Origin: Bacillota bacterium
GTDB lineage: Bacteria > Bacillota > SHA-98 > UBA4971
Direction of reading: 5' to 3'
Length of the DNA stretch: 33,572 nucleotides
Assembly (NCBI GenBank): GCA_012516125.1
Contig: JAAYXB010000026.1
Location: 1-33,572 of the forward strand
Shown: piece by piece, positions 2,434 through 14,058 of the stretch
How positions within the stretch are numbered: the first letter of the stretch is position 1
How the letters are laid out: every line of letters begins with the position of its first letter
Notes under the pieces: generated by a model
Databases searched by the model: none
Seen by the model: the letters and a program-made list of their open reading frames with translations, nothing else
What the model was told of the DNA's origin: nothing
Translations under genes and position numbers: made by a program

Positions 2434-3462
2434 CTAGGCAAAATGGCACGCCACCTTGTGGCCTCGCTCGCGCTCGATTATCTCAGGCTCCTTCTCGCGA
2501 CAGATGTCTTTCATCACTGGACACCGGGGGTGTAGCCTGCAGCCGCTCGGAGGGTTCACCGGGTTCGGCACCTCGCCGGCCATGACCGACTGCAGCCCTC
2601 GTTTTGACGGATCAGGAATCAGCACAGCGTTGAGAAGGGCTCTGGTGTAAGGATGGAGCGGGAACTTCACTATGTCCTCGGTGTTCCCCTCTTCCACCAT
2701 CTTGCCCAGGTACATTACACCGATCCTGTCGCAAATGTGCCTCGCCGTCGCGAGGTCATGGGTTATGTATACGAAAGTTACCCCCTTTTCCTTAGCCAGA
2801 CGGAGCATGAGGTTGAGGATCTCGCCCCGGATGGACACGTCCAGCATGGATACAGGCTCATCCGCGACGATGAAATCCGGGTTCAGCACAAGCGCCCTTG
2901 CCACGGCGATCCTCTGACGTTGTCCGCCTGAAAGCTCGTGAGGATACCGATAGATGTACTCCTCGGGCGGGGTCATCTCCACGTCAACGAGCGCCTGGCT
3001 GACAAGATCCACCGCCTCATGCCCATCCTTGACTACTCCCTGGATGCGCAATGGCTCTGAGATGATCCTGTACACGTCCAGCCGCGGGTTCATGGATTCA
3101 TACGGGTCCTGGAACACGATCTGCATCTTGCGTCTGAGGCGTTTCATCTCATTCGAAGGGAGTGCCAGCAGGTCTCTCCCCTCGAACAAGATGTGCCCTG
3201 ACTGTGGCTCGATGAGCCTCAGAATCGTGCGCCCCATGGTCGTCTTACCGCACCCGGACTCTCCCACTACCCCGAATATCTCGCCTTTCCTGACGTCGAA
3301 GCTGATCCCATCTACGGCGCGCACCGCAGGGACAGGGCCTCCACGTAGCGACTGGATAAGGCCCCGACGGATGGGGAAATGCTTTACGAGGTCCACGACC
3401 CGGAGCACGACATCGCCGGTCCAGGCCCCGGCAGCCTGCTCGCCAGTTGCTACTACACCCAT
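2434..3462 (-). CDS. dppF: Peptide ABC transporter ATPase, DppF/OppF type
   Basis: 342 residues, cytoplasmic, one of two ATPases powering peptide (or nickel/sugar-oligomer) import. Walker A GESGCGKT is at 67-74, the Q-loop FQDP at 117-120, signature LSGGQRQR at 177-184, Walker B IVADEP at 198-203 and the switch histidine at 235. The C-terminal oligopeptide-transporter extension has four cysteines (308, 314, 321, 339). In this family such cysteines have been linked to an iron-sulfur cluster. The ATG start overlaps the end of the upstream ATPase gene by 10 bases and has a GGAGGG site, so translation is probably coupled. The family assignment is firm; the transported substrate is not determined by sequence. 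Confidence 0.93.
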   Translation of the reverse strand: MGVVATGEQAAGAWTGDVVLRVVDLVKHFPIRRGLIQSLRGGPVPAVRAVDGISFDVRKGEIFGVVGESGCGKTTMGRTILRLIEPQSGHILFEGRDLLALPSNEMKRLRRKMQIVFQDPYESMNPRLDVYRIISEPLRIQGVVKDGHEAVDLVSQALVDVEMTPPEEYIYRYPHELSGGQRQRIAVARALVLNPDFIVADEPVSMLDVSIRGEILNLMLRLAKEKGVTFVYITHDLATARHICDRIGVMYLGKMVEEGNTEDIVKFPLHPYTRALLNAVLIPDPSKRGLQSVMAGEVPNPVNPPSGCRLHPRCPVMKDICREKEPEIIERERGHKVACHFA

Positions 3463-4442
3463 ATGTCAATCCCTCCTGCGGTGACGTCTACCTTGTGGCA
3501 TGCCACGGAATGATGGTTGCCCCCTACCTCGATGCTCGCGGGTTCCTCGGTCTTGCACCTGTCATCAGCCAGAGGGCACCTGGGATGGAACCTGCATCCT
3601 TCGGGCGGCGAGACGAGGTTGGGCGGGAACCCCGGGACTGACCGGACAGGCGATTTGTCGGCCGCGATGTTCGGGAACGCGCTGACCAGCCCCATGCTGT
3701 ACGGGTGTAACGGCTTCTTGTATACCTCAGTGGCGGTGCCGTACTCGACTATTCTGCCGGCATACATTATGGCCACGTCGTCGCATGTCTGGGCTATGAC
3801 TGAGAGATCGTGGGTGATCAGCATCATCGACAGGGCGAGCTTCTCCCTGAGGTCCTGGATGGCCCGGAGGACCTGCGCCTGGACCATGACGTCAAGCGCT
3901 GTGGTCGGCTCGTCAGCTATCACGAGGTCCGGGTTGCACGCGAGCGCCATCGCGATGACCGCGCGCTGCTTCATTCCGCCGCTAAATTCGTGGGGATAGT
4001 CGTTGAATCGTCTCGGGCTGATCCCAACCATATCCAGGAGCCTGCGTGCGCGGTCCACAGCTTCTTGCCGCGAGACGTCCTCATGAGTCAGGATGGCCTC
4101 GACGATCTGGTTGCCCACCCGGTGGACCGGGTTTAGCGCGTTCATCGCCCCCTGGAATATCATGGATATCCTGCTCCATCGAATGGCCTTCCGGAAGGCC
4201 TCCTCACTCATGCTGAGAAGATCAAGCCCGTCCATCCTGACCTCCCCGCCCAGGATGTGCCCGTTGCCGGGCAGAAGCCTCAACACTGTGATGGCCATGC
4301 TGGACTTGCCGCAGCCTGACTCCCCCGCAATGCCGAGGGCCTTGCCCTTCTCGATCTCGAAGCTCACGGAGTCCACGGCCTTTACCTGCCCCCGGAGGGT
4401 CTGGTAATACATTTTCAGGTCTTTCACTTCCAGCAGTGCCAT
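3453..4442 (-). CDS. dppD: Peptide ABC transporter ATPase, DppD/OppD type
   Basis: 329 residues. Walker A GESGCGKS at 40-47, Q-loop FQG at 96-98, signature FSGGMKQR at 153-160, Walker B VIADEPT at 174-180, switch histidine at 211. The C-terminal region has the four-cysteine pattern of oligopeptide ATPases (283, 289, 296, 315), like its partner downstream. The two would pair as a heterodimer under the two permeases. The gene starts 1 base after the stop of the enlarged permease gene and overlaps the next ATPase by 10 bases, so the set forms one tightly packed operon. Confidence 0.93.
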   Translation of the reverse strand: MALLEVKDLKMYYQTLRGQVKAVDSVSFEIEKGKALGIAGESGCGKSSMAITVLRLLPGNGHILGGEVRMDGLDLLSMSEEAFRKAIRWSRISMIFQGAMNALNPVHRVGNQIVEAILTHEDVSRQEAVDRARRLLDMVGISPRRFNDYPHEFSGGMKQRAVIAMALACNPDLVIADEPTTALDVMVQAQVLRAIQDLREKLALSMMLITHDLSVIAQTCDDVAIMYAGRIVEYGTATEVYKKPLHPYSMGLVSAFPNIAADKSPVRSVPGFPPNLVSPPEGCRFHPRCPLADDRCKTEEPASIEVGGNHHSVACHKVDVTAGGIDIWV

Positions 4443-4443
4443 C

Positions 4444-5916
4444 TTATGATCTCTCCCTGTACCGCGGATTGAGGACCTCGTTGACCGTGTTGCCGATGAA
4501 GGTGAAGCTCAAGCTAAGAAGGGTGATGGCAAGGCCAGGCGGGACGAGCCACCACCAGGCCAACTCGGTGAACGCCCCGAAAGCTCGGGCATTCTGGAGC
4601 ATGCGCCCCCATGTCGGGATCCGAGGATCTCCGAGCCCCAGGAAGCTCAGAGAAGCCTCGTACAAAATGGCCACGGGCATCATGAGGACCATGTTGGCCA
4701 CTACGAGCGGCAGGACGTTCGGCAGGATATGCACTACCATGATGTAAGCGTCGCTCGCCCCTGCAGCCTTCGCGGCCTCGACGAAAGCCCTTTCCTTGAG
4801 AGAAAGGGTCTGGGACCTCACGACTCGTGATGATCCCATCCATGAGAACGCTGCCACGAGGAGAACGATGTTCCACATGTTCTTTCCAAGGAAAGCCGAC
4901 AGGATGATGAGCACCGGCAAGGTCGGAACCGACAGAAACACATCTGCGACCCTCATGAGAAACTCGTCCACGGGTCCTCCAAGGAATCCGCTGATAATCC
5001 CGATGGTTGTACCCAGGGCCACGCCTATGACGGCCGCGGATATACCGATGATGAGCGAGATCCTGGCACCGTAAACAAGCTGTGCCCAAAGATCCGACCC
5101 CATATGATCCGCCCCCAGCAGGCCGTGAAGAATGCCCAGAATGTTGAACTTCGCGGGAGCGAGGAACAGCCTTGCCTCGGCCGACGGGCTCTCGCTTGAA
5201 GCCTTCAGGACGAGCCTGTAATCGCCCTTTGTCGCGAAAATGACCTTGGCAGGGTCATCGAATATCGTCATGTTTAGCCTGGTCTTCATCTGCAGGTCCC
5301 GCGAGTCCAGGCCTGCTGTCGTCCAGTCCTGCTCACCATACACAGCCGTGCCCCATATGTCATATTCCTTGCCCTCGGGGTCAACGATTGCGAGGGAAAG
5401 CTGTGTCATGGCGTCCGGGGGGGCCTCTACCCGGTAGGTCACCTTGCCTTCGAACGTATTCGGGGGATTGAACCCGTAGTGGACCCTCCAGCTCAGCTCG
5501 CTCCGCGCGCCCCCTCCGCCTTCGCTAGACGGCTCAAACCTGATGACGGCGGTCTCGCCCCGGTCTCCTGCTTCTTCAAAAGACAAACTCGCCCGTTCCT
5601 GGCGTTCGACCTTCCACTGGTCTGGATGAATCGTGTACCTGGATGTGGGCGGAGCATTCCGGAACCGCGGTATGACAAACCTGGCCCATATCGGAGCAGC
5701 CAGCCTGTCCGCAAGGAAGAACTCCGTCTTGCGCGGGTCGTACGGCGTAAGGAGCGGCGCAGCAAGCGCAACCGCGATGTACAGCGCCAGCATGACCAGC
5801 CCCACCAGCCCGTAAGGCCTACGCCGATACTGTGCCCAGAAATCAGCGATCCCTGAACGCTTTCTTCTTGGTGCCGATTGCACTGCGGCCTGAGCTGCTA
5901 CGGTCTCGCCACTCAT
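4444..5916 (-). CDS. dppC: Peptide ABC transporter permease DppC with large inserted domain
   Basis: 490 residues, against about 280-310 for ordinary DppC/OppC. Residues 35-58 form the first helix and LTPYDPR follows as usual. The family then normally goes almost directly to the G-T-D-x-x-G-R-D segment; here the matching LGADHMGSD begins only at 268. The roughly 180 residues between (about 80-260) are hydrophilic and beta-rich, with no membrane helix, so they should lie outside the cytoplasmic membrane. The remaining helices and the ATPase-contact loop (EAAKAAGA from 380, then ILPN) are normal. The ATG overlaps the stop of dppB by 4 bases. The inserted domain may contact the unusual binding protein encoded upstream; that is inference. 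Confidence 0.92.
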   Translation of the reverse strand: MSGETVAAQAAVQSAPRRKRSGIADFWAQYRRRPYGLVGLVMLALYIAVALAAPLLTPYDPRKTEFFLADRLAAPIWARFVIPRFRNAPPTSRYTIHPDQWKVERQERASLSFEEAGDRGETAVIRFEPSSEGGGGARSELSWRVHYGFNPPNTFEGKVTYRVEAPPDAMTQLSLAIVDPEGKEYDIWGTAVYGEQDWTTAGLDSRDLQMKTRLNMTIFDDPAKVIFATKGDYRLVLKASSESPSAEARLFLAPAKFNILGILHGLLGADHMGSDLWAQLVYGARISLIIGISAAVIGVALGTTIGIISGFLGGPVDEFLMRVADVFLSVPTLPVLIILSAFLGKNMWNIVLLVAAFSWMGSSRVVRSQTLSLKERAFVEAAKAAGASDAYIMVVHILPNVLPLVVANMVLMMPVAILYEASLSFLGLGDPRIPTWGRMLQNARAFGAFTELAWWWLVPPGLAITLLSLSFTFIGNTVNEVLNPRYRERS

Positions 5917-6896
5917 CTACGTTCACCCGCCCCGACCCGTATCCTCGGGTCCACAAGTCCATACACCAGGTCCGCCATGAAATTGGATATGATGACAGCA
6001 AGAGCGATAAGGTAGAACGCTCCCTGCGCAGCAGGGTAATCCTGCTGGAGCACCGCGTCCATCAGGTAGCGGCCCACGCCGTGCCATGAGAAGATCGTTT
6101 CGGTGATGACCGCCCCGGTGACAAGGCCAGGCAGAGAGAGAAAGATCAGGGTCACGATGGGCGGCAGGACGCTCCTGAGGGCATGGTGGTAGAGGATGTC
6201 GCGCCTCGGCAACCCCTTGGCGCGGGCGGTAATTATGTAGTCCTGGCCAAGAGCTTCAAGCATGGTATTCCGCGTATAGAGCGCCCAGGAGCCGAACCCG
6301 ATTATAACGTTGCTCCCGGCAGGAAGGATCAGGTGGTGAACACGGTCAAGGAACCTCAGGAATGCCCCATCAGGAGGCGGGGCGCTCATCGTGCCGTGTA
6401 TAGGGAAGATCCTTATGTAGTAACCAAATAGCATCAGGAGCAGCAACTGAAAGAAAAACGTCGGGACCGCGTAAGTGAACAGCCCCGCCCCTGTCACGAA
6501 CGTTTCAGCGAATGTACCCCTGTGCTGAGCCGCGTACACTCCCACGGCGGTTCCGATGATCATGGTCAGGGTAAATGCCGTGAGGAAGAGCACAATGGTA
6601 TTGGGGAGGCGCTCCGCAAGCTCGCTGGCCACGGGCCGTCTGGTGGCGAACGACTGGCCCAGGTCGAATCTCAGGAGGCTTGTGATGTACTTCCAGTACT
6701 GCACCAGGGGGGGATCGTCGAGGCCGAACTGCTTCCGTAAGGCCATTCTTGCCTCAGGAGAAAAACGCGGGTCGATTATCATCTTCTCCGCGTCACCCGG
6801 CATCAATCGAAAGACGGCGAAGTTGAACGTGAGGATCACAAAAAGCACGATCAGTGCGTACACTATCCGGCGAATCAGGTATGTGCGAAAGCCCAA
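5913..6896 (-). CDS. dppB: Peptide ABC transporter permease, DppB type
   Basis: 327 residues, inner-membrane channel subunit. It begins with the typical DppB pattern (basic residues, then a first helix at about 10-31 ending in F-R-L-M-P-G-D). It also has the FGLDDPPLVQYW segment, the helix bundle from about 100, and the EAA-like cytoplasmic loop (ITARAKGLPRRDILYHHALRSVLPP). The length is normal for the family. The start is TTG at 6894-6896, supported by GAGGTGA about 8 bases upstream. A stable hairpin separates it from the binding-protein gene, and it overlaps dppC by 4 bases. Confidence 0.92.
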   Translation of the reverse strand: MGFRTYLIRRIVYALIVLFVILTFNFAVFRLMPGDAEKMIIDPRFSPEARMALRKQFGLDDPPLVQYWKYITSLLRFDLGQSFATRRPVASELAERLPNTIVLFLTAFTLTMIIGTAVGVYAAQHRGTFAETFVTGAGLFTYAVPTFFFQLLLLMLFGYYIRIFPIHGTMSAPPPDGAFLRFLDRVHHLILPAGSNVIIGFGSWALYTRNTMLEALGQDYIITARAKGLPRRDILYHHALRSVLPPIVTLIFLSLPGLVTGAVITETIFSWHGVGRYLMDAVLQQDYPAAQGAFYLIALAVIISNFMADLVYGLVDPRIRVGAGERR

Positions 6897-7063: not shown

Positions 7064-8764
7064 CTACTTCTTCGGAGGGTTCAACCTCCAGTAAATGGGG
7101 TTCTTGATCAGGCGCACGTACTCGCCGGGTTTGTACTCCTTGAGTATGAACGGACCGGTGCCGATGACCTTGGTGAGGCCCTTCACTTTCGGGTGGGGCT
7201 CAAGCCACGGCTGGAAGCCCTTCCAGTCCTTCACGTTCTCCCAGATGTGCTTGGGCAGGAACGAGTACGCTGCGTGATACAGGTGCCAGTAGCTGACGGT
7301 GCTGAAGTACACTATCGCGGTGTACGGGTCGGGCGTTTCAACTTTCACGATATCCTGCAGGTCGCTGATGTACAACGGGACCTCGTTCTTCTTGAGGTAC
7401 TCTATCGTGAACTTGATATCAGCGGACGTGAACGGCTCGCCGTCCTGCCACTTGACGCCCTTCTCCAGGAACCACGTGACCTTTGTGCCCTTCTTGCCAG
7501 GCTCAGGCTCCCAGGTTTCCACCTTCCAGCTCTTCGCAAGCCACGGCATGTCCTCGAGGGTCTCGGGGTTCACCGCCAATAGGCCATCGCCGATCCTGCC
7601 GAGGACCTCCCACTCATACGCAGAGCTTGCGACGCACATGTTCAGGTTCTTGGGCTCCTCCGGCAGCAGCCACCGGATCGTGCCGCCCGGTCCCTGCACA
7701 CGACGGATGTTGAGGGTGGTCCACCCGTTGTTGTACTGGGCGGCGCCGTAGCCCAACATCGGCACGTACCCTGTCACCATATCCTTGCGCCACGCGTCCA
7801 TGTACGGACGAGAGTATAGCGTGACGTAAGGGAGCTTCTGCGACAGGATCACCTGCGCCTTGGCCGCAGCAGCCTTGGCGGTCTCAAGGTCTGGTGGGTA
7901 GTACACGGCCTCGACGGCCTTGTCGAGCTCTGGGTCGCGGATACCGGGCGTGTTGTACCCAGCCTCTACATCCTGCGACGAATGGAAGAACGTATAGAGG
8001 TAGTCAGGAATCCGGCTAAGGCCCCAGGCCAGCACGTACATATCGAAGTCGAACACGTCGATCTTCTCGAGCATGACCGGGAAATCCATTGGCTCCGGAT
8101 CCACTGGGAGGCCGATGGCCTTTGCAGCCTCGGCGATCATCTTGCCGAGCTCAGCAGAGGTGGGCGCTACCTCATACGTGGGGGTGAATATCTTCATCTT
8201 CCGGAGCGGTTTTCCGGTCTTGGGATCGATCCTGACGCCGGTGGCCTTGTCCAGCTTATAGCCAGCCTTGTCCAGTATCTCCTTGGCCTTCTCCGGGTTA
8301 TAAGGGTACTGCGGCACGTTGGGGTTGTGGAAAGGCGATGACTGCGGCACGAAACTCGTAAGCGGCAGCATGTACCCCTGGAAAAGCTGGTTTATGATCT
8401 GCTCGCGGTTGGTGACGTGCGCAATAGCCTGGCGAACGGCAACGTCATCGAGCGGGCCACGGCGCATGTTGAAGCACAGGTAGAACATGTGGAACCCGAG
8501 GTTCACGGTGATGTCGGCGTTCGGGTTCTGCTTGACCTTGTTGATGTCCCCAGGCCTTGTGAGCCCCGGAAGCACCACACTCTCACCGCGCTCGAACGCA
8601 ATGAGCTGAGCTTCGCTATCCTTGATGATGGGCATGATGATCTGGTCGACACGGGGGCCCCAGGGCTCCCATTTCACCTTCTTCTCCTGGGCAGCCACTA
8701 TCGTGGTAGCCAGGGCCAGGACAAGCAACAACGCTACGGGGACAAGAAACTTTCTCGCTCTCAT
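7064..8764 (-). CDS. Peptide-binding protein, family 5, circularly permuted
   Basis: 566 residues with an export signal (basic start, hydrophobic 7-24, cut near A-A-Q). The sequence is typical of the SBP_bac_5 family, but the order is reversed. After the signal comes what is normally the C-terminal half: from DSEAQL at 49, through FNMRRGPLDDVAVRQA at 98-113 and Y-N-P-E-K-A at 155-160, to LPYVTLYSRPY at 311-321. Then comes what is normally the mature N-terminus, GGTIRWLLPEEPKNLN at 360-375. It continues through KGVKWQDGEPFTSADIKF (435-452) and ends at GTGPFILKEYKPGEY / NPIYWRLNPPKK, where the usual protein would run on into DSEAQL. All parts are present once. The start has AAGGAGG. It is the first gene of the transporter operon. 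Confidence 0.9.
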   Translation of the reverse strand: MRARKFLVPVALLLVLALATTIVAAQEKKVKWEPWGPRVDQIIMPIIKDSEAQLIAFERGESVVLPGLTRPGDINKVKQNPNADITVNLGFHMFYLCFNMRRGPLDDVAVRQAIAHVTNREQIINQLFQGYMLPLTSFVPQSSPFHNPNVPQYPYNPEKAKEILDKAGYKLDKATGVRIDPKTGKPLRKMKIFTPTYEVAPTSAELGKMIAEAAKAIGLPVDPEPMDFPVMLEKIDVFDFDMYVLAWGLSRIPDYLYTFFHSSQDVEAGYNTPGIRDPELDKAVEAVYYPPDLETAKAAAAKAQVILSQKLPYVTLYSRPYMDAWRKDMVTGYVPMLGYGAAQYNNGWTTLNIRRVQGPGGTIRWLLPEEPKNLNMCVASSAYEWEVLGRIGDGLLAVNPETLEDMPWLAKSWKVETWEPEPGKKGTKVTWFLEKGVKWQDGEPFTSADIKFTIEYLKKNEVPLYISDLQDIVKVETPDPYTAIVYFSTVSYWHLYHAAYSFLPKHIWENVKDWKGFQPWLEPHPKVKGLTKVIGTGPFILKEYKPGEYVRLIKNPIYWRLNPPKK

Positions 8765-9045
8765 CTCACTACCTCCTTCTTGTGGTCGTTCGGGGAATCA
8801 TTGACGATCCTCAGAAACGGCCTCTACCCGCTTGTTGCTTTTGTACCTGCGTTTCACCTCCCACTTCAAGCGTCTTGCAACTTGAGCCAGTGTGGACTTT
8901 GCGATGACCACCGGCATTTCCCACTGCAGATTATTCCACGGGAATCATGGAACTCCTTCTCAGCACTGGAAGAATGTCATACGAATTTCGTATTGCACCA
9001 GCGTGGGCAGGTATAACATCGCCCGCCCCCCTGCCACCCTCCTCG
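8765..9045. other. Regulatory region upstream of the peptide transporter operon
   Basis: 281 bases between the LiaF-like gene (stop at 9046) and the binding-protein gene, both on the minus strand. It holds the AAGGAGG ribosome site just upstream of 8764 and a perfect palindrome at 8979-8993. I found no near-consensus promoter, so the transporter promoter may depend on an activator. Confidence 0.4.
8979..8993. promoter_or_regulatory. Perfect palindrome ATACGAA-T-TTCGTAT, possible operator
   Basis: A 15-base sequence with two perfect 7-base arms around a single T, 215 bases upstream of the first gene of the peptide transporter operon. The AT-rich symmetric form suits a dimeric transcription factor. 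No second copy was noticed in the window and no matching family is assigned. Confidence 0.4.
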
Positions 9046-10557: not shown

Positions 10558-13500
10558 TCAATGCTGGCAAGGAAGATCCTTTCGAATGCCGTGCGAAGTT
10601 AGGCTCACGATGTTCCCCCGCCGCTCCACGCGTCCCTCAACAACAAGGATTGGGCTCGTGAACATCACACCCCCGCACTGCCTGTATACGTCCTCGAACA
10701 CCGTCACGTCGATGAGGCCGGTCTCGTCCTCGAGCGAGAAGAAGACCACGATCCTTCCGCTTCGGGTCGGAGGGCGGTGCGGCCTTACCACCACTCCCGC
10801 CACCCGCACGCTCGTGCCCGACTCCATCTCTTTTGCGGCGGCAGCCGTGAGCACCCCTCCCCTCGCCAGGCGGCTACGATATAACTCCATCGGATGCTTC
10901 GTGGGATGGAGGCCGAGTATGTAGAACTCGTACTTGAACTTATCGACCTCGGAAAAGTCGGGGATATCCCCTAACGATCGAAGAGAGCCGCCGTCCCCGG
11001 CCTGCGTGCTCCGCACCTGCATGCCGGCTTCGGAAAAGGTGCCGACGCCGTCGCCAGTGCCAGTGCCAGTGCCGGCGTCAGCGGCAGCGGCAGCAGCAAC
11101 AGCAGCGGCAACAGCAGCGGCAGCGCCATCGTTGGGGCCGCGCCGCGGCTGCAGGGTCAGACCAGGGATGGCGGCGCGGCCATCGCCGCTTCCGCTCCTC
11201 TTCGGGCCCGCCGACTCACGCGACCGACCTCCCAACCGCTCCGCTCTCCGCAGCTGCCTTGCGATCTTCCAAAGCGCAGCCCTGCGGTTGGGACACAGGG
11301 AATCAAATGCGCCGCATAACACCAGATTTTCAAGGAGGTCCCGATCCACGGGCACCCGCGCGAAGAAGTCCTCGACGGAGGCATACCCCAGCGGCCCTCT
11401 GGATGCGACTATCCTTGCGGCCGTCTCCTCGCTCATGCCCCGCACTCTGAGAAGCCCCACGCGTATCGCGCCGTCCTCGACCGTGAACCTCTCGGCGCTC
11501 CTGTTTATGTCAACCGGCAGGATCCGGACCCCGCGCCGCCTGGCCTCCGCGCATATGGTGTTCGGCGGATAGAACCCCATCGGCTGGTTGTTCAGGATGG
11601 CCGTGTAAAACTCCGCAGGGAAATGGCGCAAGAGGTACGACGTCTTGTAGGCGGTGTCCGCAAAGGCCGCCGCGTGGGCCTCGCAGAAACCATATCCTGC
11701 GTATGCGACTATGTATGAAAGCACCGTCTCGGCGACCTCCCGGGGGGCCCCATGTTCCATCGCCTTCCTCACGAATTCCTTCCCTATCTCGTCCATCTCC
11801 GCCCTGGAGCGGTAGTGAGTCATCACTTTTCTCAGGCGGTCGGACTCCCCTGGAGTGAAGCCGGCTATCGCCGTTGCGATCTCGATTACCTGCTCCTGGT
11901 AGAGCACCACGCCGTACGTTTTCTTAAGGATCCTTTCAAGGCTGGGATGGACGTAAGTCACGTCTTCAAGCCCCCGCCTCCTTGCGACGAACGGCTCCAC
12001 CATGTTCCCCTGGACGGGACCCGGCCGGATGAGCGCGACGCTCGCCACGATGTCCTCAATGGTGCTCGCCCCGAGGCGTCCCTGGAGCGCGCGCTGCGCC
12101 GGACTTTCAAGCTGGAAGGCACCTATGGTTTCCCCGGCGTTCAGCATCTCGTATGTGGCCTCATCGTCGAGGGGAATGCGCTGGTAATCGACACCGCTCA
12201 GCTTCACGGAGTCTTCCACCGCCGCGAGCATGCGCAGCGACAGCAAATCGAGCTTGATGAGGCCGACCTCCTCCACGTCGTCCTTGTCGAACTGGGTGAT
12301 GACCACGCCGCGCGCCGCCATCTGCAAGGGGGTCACCCTCACGAGAGGCACCCGGCTTGCCACCACCCCGCCCAGGTGGGTACCGATGTGGCGCGGCACG
12401 CCCGCCAGGGCCTGGCATATATCGAACAGGCGAGAGTATTTCTCCACGTGGATGCCGCTTTCGCGAAGCTCGGGGTACCTCTCGAAGGCCGCTCTGATCT
12501 CGTCAGCACACATGTGCGGAAGGCGCTTCGCAAGCCGGTCTATGTCCCCTGAGGGCAGCCCCATGGCCTTGCCCACGTCGCGCACGGCAGACCTCGCTTG
12601 AAACGTGTTGAAGGTACATACCGTCGCCACACGCTCGGGACCGTACTTGCGCTGCAGGTAGTCTCGCACCTCATCTCGCCTGCGGGCATCGAAGTCGATG
12701 TCGATGTCAGGCTTCTGCGCCCGCTCAAGGCTGAGGAAACGCTCGAAGAGAAGGCCCCGGGCGATCGGGTCCACGCTGGTTATGAAAAGGCAATACGCCA
12801 CGGCGGAGTCTGCTGCGGAGCCCCTCCCCGCGAACCTGATCCCCTTTTGCCGGGCGAAACTCACAACGTCCCATACCATGAGAAAGTAGTCCTCATACCC
12901 GAGGGTGCATATGACGTCAAGCTCGTGGTCGAGCCTCGACCTTATCGCCGGGGTGATAGTCCCATAGCGCGATGAGGCGCCTTCGTATACAAGATGTCGG
13001 AGGTACTCGGCGGACGTCCCCGTCCCCCCTGGAGGGACAAAGGTTGGAAAGAGCCTCTGGTCGAGCAAAAGCCCGGGAGAGCACCGGTCGGCGATCTCGC
13101 CGGCGGCTGCTATCGCCTCAGGATAGCGGCGGAAAAGGGACGTCATCTCCTCGACAGGCTTCAAGTAGTTCTCGGCGTTGAGCCTTCGCTCAGGATGCAC
13201 ATCGTCGAGCCGCGTCAGCGTGCGGATACAGGTGAGGACGTCATGTATGGCAAAGTCTGATTTTTCGCAGTAGTGGACGTCGTTGGTAGCCACGACCCTC
13301 ACCCCGACTTCCTCCGCCAGCTCAATGAGGCGGGAGATGAGGTGGTCGCCACCTGGGATGGCGAGGTTCTGGAGTTCTATGTAGAAGCTGTCCCGCCCGA
13401 AGATGTGCACAAGCCGCCTGGCAAGCTCCAGCGCCTGCCTGTACCTGCCTGCGCGGACGAGCGCTGGGACGGCACCCCGCACGATGCACCCGGAAAGCGC

Positions 13501-14058
13501 TATGACCCCCTTGTGGTGCTCCTCAAGCGAGGACAGGGACACCCTCGGCGCCAGGCGGCGCTTGACAAACTCCGCCAAAACCCCGCTCCCCGACGCCGGG
13601 AGCGCTCGCCCGGGCGGCCCTAAGCGAAGGTTAGTTAATTCCTCCCGGTTTTCCAGCGGGTGTCGGGTTGCCGGTGTTGCACTCTCACTTATTATCGTAT
13701 CGCTGGGGCTCTTAGAAAACGGAGCTATGCCGTCGCCTGCGATGGCCCTCTCCCAGTCTCTCGACATATAAGCCTCGGTGAGGATCGTGCAGATGTTGGC
13801 ATAGCCCTCGGGACCTTCCGCCAGAAGTACCAGGTGGCTCCCGCCCTCGAGCGTGACCTCGACGCCGTGGATAGGCTTTATCCCGTGCTGCCGGGCGGCC
13901 CGGGCGAACCTTGCCGCCGCGCAGAGGTTGTCGTGGTCCGTGACGGCGATGGCCTCCATGTCAAGCTCCGCCGCGCCCCTCACAATGGCCTCGACGCTTG
14001 ACGCCCCATCAAGGAATGAGAAATGCGAGTGCACGTGGAGATGCGCGAACTTCCCCAT
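10558..14058 (-). CDS. dnaE2: DNA polymerase III alpha subunit, error-prone DnaE2/ImuC type
   Basis: 1166 residues. An N-terminal PHP domain (HLHVHSHFSFLDGAS at 7-20, then V-T-D-H-D) leads to the C-family polymerase core. PDIDIDF is at 450-456 and the third catalytic aspartate is in KLDLL near 604. The protein ends with an OB-fold domain (VRVAGVVVRPHRP onward) without the long C-terminal part of replicative DnaE, as in DnaE2/ImuC. Ordinary DnaE2 is about 1050-1080 residues. The extra length is explained by about 60 residues at 108-168, partly encoded by a repeat element, and an Ala/Gly-rich stretch at about 945-1040. It follows imuB and a DUF6504 gene behind an SOS promoter, so its expected role is lesion-bypass synthesis after DNA damage. 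Confidence 0.9.
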   Translation of the reverse strand: MGKFAHLHVHSHFSFLDGASSVEAIVRGAAELDMEAIAVTDHDNLCAAARFARAARQHGIKPIHGVEVTLEGGSHLVLLAEGPEGYANICTILTEAYMSRDWERAIAGDGIAPFSKSPSDTIISESATPATRHPLENREELTNLRLGPPGRALPASGSGVLAEFVKRRLAPRVSLSSLEEHHKGVIALSGCIVRGAVPALVRAGRYRQALELARRLVHIFGRDSFYIELQNLAIPGGDHLISRLIELAEEVGVRVVATNDVHYCEKSDFAIHDVLTCIRTLTRLDDVHPERRLNAENYLKPVEEMTSLFRRYPEAIAAAGEIADRCSPGLLLDQRLFPTFVPPGGTGTSAEYLRHLVYEGASSRYGTITPAIRSRLDHELDVICTLGYEDYFLMVWDVVSFARQKGIRFAGRGSAADSAVAYCLFITSVDPIARGLLFERFLSLERAQKPDIDIDFDARRRDEVRDYLQRKYGPERVATVCTFNTFQARSAVRDVGKAMGLPSGDIDRLAKRLPHMCADEIRAAFERYPELRESGIHVEKYSRLFDICQALAGVPRHIGTHLGGVVASRVPLVRVTPLQMAARGVVITQFDKDDVEEVGLIKLDLLSLRMLAAVEDSVKLSGVDYQRIPLDDEATYEMLNAGETIGAFQLESPAQRALQGRLGASTIEDIVASVALIRPGPVQGNMVEPFVARRRGLEDVTYVHPSLERILKKTYGVVLYQEQVIEIATAIAGFTPGESDRLRKVMTHYRSRAEMDEIGKEFVRKAMEHGAPREVAETVLSYIVAYAGYGFCEAHAAAFADTAYKTSYLLRHFPAEFYTAILNNQPMGFYPPNTICAEARRRGVRILPVDINRSAERFTVEDGAIRVGLLRVRGMSEETAARIVASRGPLGYASVEDFFARVPVDRDLLENLVLCGAFDSLCPNRRAALWKIARQLRRAERLGGRSRESAGPKRSGSGDGRAAIPGLTLQPRRGPNDGAAAAVAAAVAAAAAADAGTGTGTGDGVGTFSEAGMQVRSTQAGDGGSLRSLGDIPDFSEVDKFKYEFYILGLHPTKHPMELYRSRLARGGVLTAAAAKEMESGTSVRVAGVVVRPHRPPTRSGRIVVFFSLEDETGLIDVTVFEDVYRQCGGVMFTSPILVVEGRVERRGNIVSLTSHGIRKDLPCQH
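11053..11127 (-). repeat. Microsatellite-like GCC/AGC/GCAGCG tract inside dnaE2
   Basis: Runs of CAGTGC and of CAGCGG/CAGCAA units on the plus strand encode A-A-A-V-A-A-A and G-T-G-T-G-T-G in DnaE2 (about residues 977-1002). The tract is length-variable by nature and lies in a linker just before the C-terminal OB-fold region. Confidence 0.8.
13620..13692 (-). repeat. Shortened palindromic repeat inserted in frame in dnaE2
   Basis: About 73 bp related to the right-hand part of repeat copies A and B. In the dnaE2 direction it runs from ATAAGTGAGAGTGC through AACACCGGCAACCC to TTCGCTTAG, so terminal-repeat-like ends are kept and the middle is missing. It encodes DnaE2 residues 123-146 (ISESATPATRHPLENREE and on). 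The same frame of copy B gives SATPATRQLLEEGR and that of copy A gives SATPAIRQLREMRQ. The reading frame of the polymerase stays open across it. Confidence 0.82.

Follow-up and report, generated by a model that had tools for sequence, protein, structure and literature searches.

The question raised by the 33,572-nucleotide stretch of DNA analyzed here (the window), from a Bacillota bacterium, is whether a gene whose product appears to carry the two halves of a family-5 solute-binding protein (SBP) in exchanged order encodes a true circular permutant, and what role such a protein might have. The first-pass annotation had proposed a permutation, with DSEAQL starting at residue 49, LPYVTLYSRPY ending at residue 321, and the usual mature N-terminus, GGTIRWLLPEEPKNLN, beginning only at residue 360; the 566-residue translation agrees at all three positions. 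The explanation we favor, to which we assign a probability of roughly 0.87, is that the product of this gene is a natural circular permutant of a family-5 (cluster C) SBP and serves the Opp/Dpp-type ABC importer encoded directly downstream. Features of the locus are collected in Table 1.

Table 1. Coordinates within the window of the permuted binding protein, its parts, and the adjoining importer genes.
Feature	Coordinates	Strand	Basis
Type I circularly permuted family-5 solute-binding protein, 566 aa	7064..8764	-	CDS
Shine-Dalgarno AAGGAGG, ATG 7 nt downstream	8772..8778	-	Sequence reading
Signal peptide, residues 1-25, cleavage VAA/Q (slash marks the cut), without lipobox	8690..8764	-	Sequence and lipobox scan
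Block C1, canonical middle part, residues 30-175	8240..8677	-	Pfam and block profiles
Block C2, canonical C-terminal part, residues 176-355	7700..8239	-	Pfam and block profiles
New linker VQGP, residues 356-359	7688..7699	-	Alignment
Block N, canonical N-terminal part, residues 360-566	7067..7687	-	Block profiles
DppB/OppB-like permease	5913..6896	-	BPD_transp_1; best NCBIfam Opp4B, below cut-off
DppC/OppC-like permease, 490 aa, large insert	4444..5916	-	Pfam, NCBIfam, operon comparison
DppC-like permease insert, residues 75-263, predicted jelly-roll/beta-sandwich	5128..5694	-	AlphaFold2 and Foldseek
DppD-like ATPase	3453..4442	-	ABC_tran and oligo_HPY
DppF-like ATPase	2434..3462	-	ABC_tran and oligo_HPY

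Taking the canonical order as N-C1-C2, we designate the order of the window protein, C1-C2-N, as type I, and the order C2-N-C1 as type II. Order was called with purpose-built profiles for the blocks N, C1, and C2, applied to every family-5 ORF fetched, and in the window protein each block is found exactly once. The only Pfam family matched is SBP_bac_5 (PF00496; 252.7 bits, cut-off 32.4), in two pieces whose profile order is reversed: protein residues 36-264 (genome coordinates 7973-8659) correspond to profile positions 145-365, and coordinates 7070-7546 to positions 4-147. When residues 360-566 are placed ahead of residues ~31-355, the match becomes one stretch covering profile positions 4-365 of 368 and scores 263.7 bits, versus the 252.7 bits in two stretches obtained for the natural order. 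C1 starts directly after the usual YW...P-x-V/L-D loop, and the linker VQGP bridges what are canonically the C-terminus and the mature N-terminus; in homologues, the alignment places ~4-11 residues between the flanking strands. Type I chains end 2-7 residues past block N. SBP_bac_5 membership by canonical order, N-C1-C2, is thus not met, and the protein is a permuted variant rather than a canonical member of the family; membership by an export signal and an operon with Opp/Dpp-type permeases and ATPases is met. These results uphold what had been read from the letters alone, namely an exported protein with its C-terminal half first (a signal peptide, then C1-C2, then N) and every expected block present once. 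The rejoined order outscores the natural one, so the check proposed with that reading is passed.

Two adjacent normal genes truncated at their ends, or a frame-shifted tandem fusion, could mimic this arrangement, and one such case, Rhizobium CP087973, with N-C1-C2-N in one ORF, did give a type I-like hit. Type I genes, however, encode each block once, have a signal peptide of their own, and fix their chain ends within a few residues, and the Shine-Dalgarno sequence ahead of the window gene counts against a truncated or fused gene as well. The first-pass annotation, too, had preferred permutation to truncation or the fusion of two genes. We give that reading almost no credence.

The survey sample comprised one phylum (398 genomes) and one plasmid collection. 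A full-length, colinear type I match occurs in 11 of 101 genomes of relatives and in 27 of the 398 phylum genomes, across at least ten families and at 50-98% identity, so homologues with the same order do exist; a one-sequence search of genome contigs returned two close relatives only. All 31 distinct type I sequences show the order C1-C2-N with each block once. The window is one contig of a 98-contig assembly, and type I was not encountered in any closed genome, circumstances in which an assembly or binning error might have swapped the gene halves. Chance, and an error of that kind, which would have refuted the original claim, are excluded by the full-length colinear orthologues in the 27 genomes, with their identical breakpoints. 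The comparable type II permutation is found in plasmid records that are complete and in one genome of 3 contigs.

Some genomes encode two or three type I copies, and in three genomes copies are adjacent (tandem pairs at G257:C70, G280:C101, and G324:C125). Signal peptides are present in type I proteins, and a lipobox is mostly absent. Values of dN/dS for four close type I pairs are 0.04, 0.07, 0.09, and 0.10; type I is under purifying selection. In trees built on block-reordered alignments, type I forms one clade with support of 100/100, and on this phylogenetic evidence the C1-C2-N order is shown to have arisen once in the type I clade. Distribution is patchy even within the genus of the window genome, where four genomes (G001, G002, G003, and G005) lack type I. 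In that genus, the window genome (G000) and G004 have type I without a main-clade type II protein, and G002 and G005 show the reverse.

No true type I sequence appeared among the best-ranked plasmid tblastn matches to the window protein (P0001) or to a second query (L080), and all 20 plasmid matches listed for P0001 were two-piece matches, as canonical order predicts. The type I-like hit from a Rhizobium plasmid (H74) was rejected as a normal tandem array, reading N-C1-C2-N by block profiles. At this site (CP087973; L138 5503-8061, plus strand), where no gene is annotated, two canonical family-5 SBP genes are merged in one ORF, possibly as an intermediate or as a decayed tandem pair.

Type II provides a second form of permutation, which had escaped the first-pass annotation. 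A PF00496 scan identified nine family-5 genes in the window genome: six canonical, one type I (on contig C7), and two type II, located at C74:5031-6605 (L054, L007) and C89:2678-4144 (L006). In one of the six canonical genes (G000:C74:19609-20804, L010), a frameshift or an error of sequencing interrupts the reading frame. Sister genomes carry orthologous-looking counterparts of the two type II genes, and L054 has a B-C-D-F operon of its own. A further group of type II genes is carried by the Bacillota genomes G002, G005, G020, G034, G066 (an assembly of 3 contigs), and G282. Searches of the plasmid collection by tblastn returned single-piece, full-length type II matches from Neorhizobium, Microvirga, Nitratireductor, Roseomonas, and Ketogulonicigenium, at 49-57% identity, and from haloarchaeal plasmids, at about 27-35% identity. 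The order C2-N-C1 was confirmed by block profiles in all eight plasmid proteins taken out, and for seven of the eight genes the neighbors include two permeases and two ATPases; annotated copies are labeled simply "ABC transporter substrate-binding protein." Three alphaproteobacterial type II operons (L103, L104, L105) lie near genes for hydantoinase/oxoprolinase, peptidase, racemase, or an IclR regulator, which suggests cyclic amide or peptide-derived substrates. Among the 60 PDB sequences listed for a type II profile, no best-matching stretch spans the C2-N junction in the manner of a permuted protein.

A tree of 61 sequences was used to ask how many times permutation occurred. In it, the main type II group, archaeal and alphaproteobacterial members included, forms one clade (99/99). 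This clade and type I are each placed close to one canonical clade, with branching unresolved. Three type II proteins (L006, L007, L090) are placed elsewhere, among canonical proteins. Forcing all type II sequences into a single clade is rejected (p-AU 1.8e-13), and permutation therefore happened more than once; joining type I and the main type II group in one clade is not clearly rejected (p 0.05). The simplest reading of these sequence trees would be three or more origins, the exact number being uncertain because of long branches. The origin suggested in the first-pass annotation, tandem duplication with loss of the outer parts, would be plausible as a conjecture; type I copies do occur in tandem, and so do normal genes.

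The window gene heads an intact Dpp/Opp operon. The order SBP, DppB, DppC, DppD, DppF holds at all type I loci with enough flanking sequence, so same-order homologues share one operon type wherever we could look, a point that the first-pass annotation had proposed to check. At 10558-14058 (minus strand), the window encodes a DnaE-like alpha subunit of polymerase III that contains a low-complexity Ala/Gly stretch, and a DnaE gene adjoins the type I operon in several relatives. The DppC-like permease ORF is 462-520 aa long at type I loci, versus 296-356 aa in type II operons, whose DppC permeases are ordinary, and 322 aa in the one canonical neighbor operon examined (L063). The difference corresponds to an insert of ~190 aa that follows the first transmembrane segment and precedes the permease core, absent from the other operons examined (type II and one canonical). 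In a search of the phylum, the long permease was found in 27 genomes, 26 of them identical to type I genomes. In the two single-sided genomes, G257 and G344, the hit lies near a contig start, and we infer from the coordinates that the missing partner is expected beyond the contig end.

AlphaFold2 models the insert as a beta-sandwich (pLDDT 81.7, pTM 0.78); among solved structures, those closest to it in fold are the jelly-rolls of MAM domains and carbohydrate-binding modules (Foldseek probability 1.00, E ~1e-5; query TM 0.33-0.61, identity ~6-16%). Sequence searches of Pfam and PDB with the insert gave chance-level matches only, and a search of the plasmid collection gave no match. The jelly-roll fold is a common one, so the resemblance is no proof of a sugar ligand; the fold is shared with MAM domains and carbohydrate-binding modules, but their ligands are not implied. 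The periplasmic P2 domain of MalF is likewise a large extracytoplasmic domain set within the permease of an importer. MalF, however, is a member of a different permease family, and to see a functional likeness here is no more than speculation.

The sequence shows that a canonical N-C1-C2 chain has been opened in the loop between N and C1, that a short linker connects its old ends, and that a signal peptide now precedes C1. In both types the breakpoint coincides with an expected loop, which follows the Y-W motif in type I and a helix ending in A-G-Y in type II. Old ends bridged by only ~4-11 residues in type I should be close together in the fold, and in OppA both old chain ends lie in the same lobe. 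With the new ends in a loop as well, the permuted chain is inferred to take the usual two-lobed fold, and the existence of type II permutation indicates that family 5 tolerates circular permutation. An AlphaFold2 model of the permuted window protein reached a pLDDT of only 36, from an alignment of 3 sequences that is too shallow. By inference, the protein would bind its solute outside the cytoplasm and hand it to the permease for uptake. That solute would probably be peptide-like or oligosaccharide-like; family-5 proteins also include sugar and metal carriers. Weaker inferences are that the permutation arose through tandem duplication and trimming, and that the permease insert may help to hold or orient the binding protein or its ligand. 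Both types are most likely working SBPs with relocated chain ends, in the absence of structure, ligand, or expression data.

The unusual extracytoplasmic permease domain co-inherited with type I leaves room for a different role, in which the fold is kept and transport has been lost, for example in a sensor or a subunit bound to the permease insert. Transport is the usual role of family-5 SBPs, and a complete B-C-D-F importer operon with both ATPases adjoins the type I gene, so this alternative appears improbable. Harder to set aside is the view that the permutation is a neutral relic of duplication and that its link to the insert reflects no more than common operon descent, a view that is compatible with our favored explanation. 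Because type I operons form one clade, a single ancestral event may account for the link; type II operons contain ordinary DppC permeases, and the family evidently tolerates permutation. Nothing speaks directly against neutrality, although the association of type I with the insert has been kept across at least ten families; we would put its chances only a little below even.

Comparison with known systems places the window protein in family 5. Its best solved relative is the oligopeptide-binding protein AppA (E 5.5e-27). AppA (1xoc), DppA (1dpp), and OppA, all family-5 (cluster C) SBPs, have the same sequence blocks and operon type and differ from it in block order. The best NCBIfam models in the window operon are Opp4A/B/C, but the window protein scores 128.5 bits against the Opp4A cut-off of 650, and its matches to peptide and nickel SBP models likewise fall far below their cut-offs. 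Membership in cluster B (sugar-binding Type I) is not met, Pfam giving SBP_bac_5 only. The closest precedent is TpMglB-2 (Tp0684) of Treponema pallidum, a naturally circularly permuted ABC SBP designated "Type Ic / Cluster Bc," which retains glucose binding and undergoes a conformational change when it binds (PMC4990184). Both proteins are circularly permuted SBPs, and by that standard the window protein qualifies; TpMglB-2, however, is a lipoprotein with the sugar-binding fold of cluster B and another breakpoint, whereas the window protein belongs to family 5. No report of permuted family-5 SBPs was found in a literature search that left out preprints and most subscription papers, and circular permutation in family 5 seems so far undescribed.

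Prokaryotes encode family-5 SBPs in very large numbers, and annotation of these proteins presumes one fixed chain order. In its broadest form, our interpretation is of a recurrent, conserved permutation in family 5, involving two or more breakpoints and three or more separate origins, one of them common to Bacteria and Archaea, in which type I evolved in concert with a jelly-roll docking domain carried by its permease. We advance this only tentatively, as a proposal that has the odds somewhat against it. If it is true, the permutation shifts the chain ends and the membrane tether, and type I together with the docking domain would represent a distinct way of presenting a binding protein to its translocator. 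Should two orders prove to be recurrent and conserved, they would have to be allowed for in profile methods, in the classification of structures, and in the clustering of SBPs. Natural permutants also reveal loops that tolerate new chain ends, which is useful for biosensor design, and the link between type I and the permease jelly-roll offers a testable case of co-evolution between a binding protein and its translocator.
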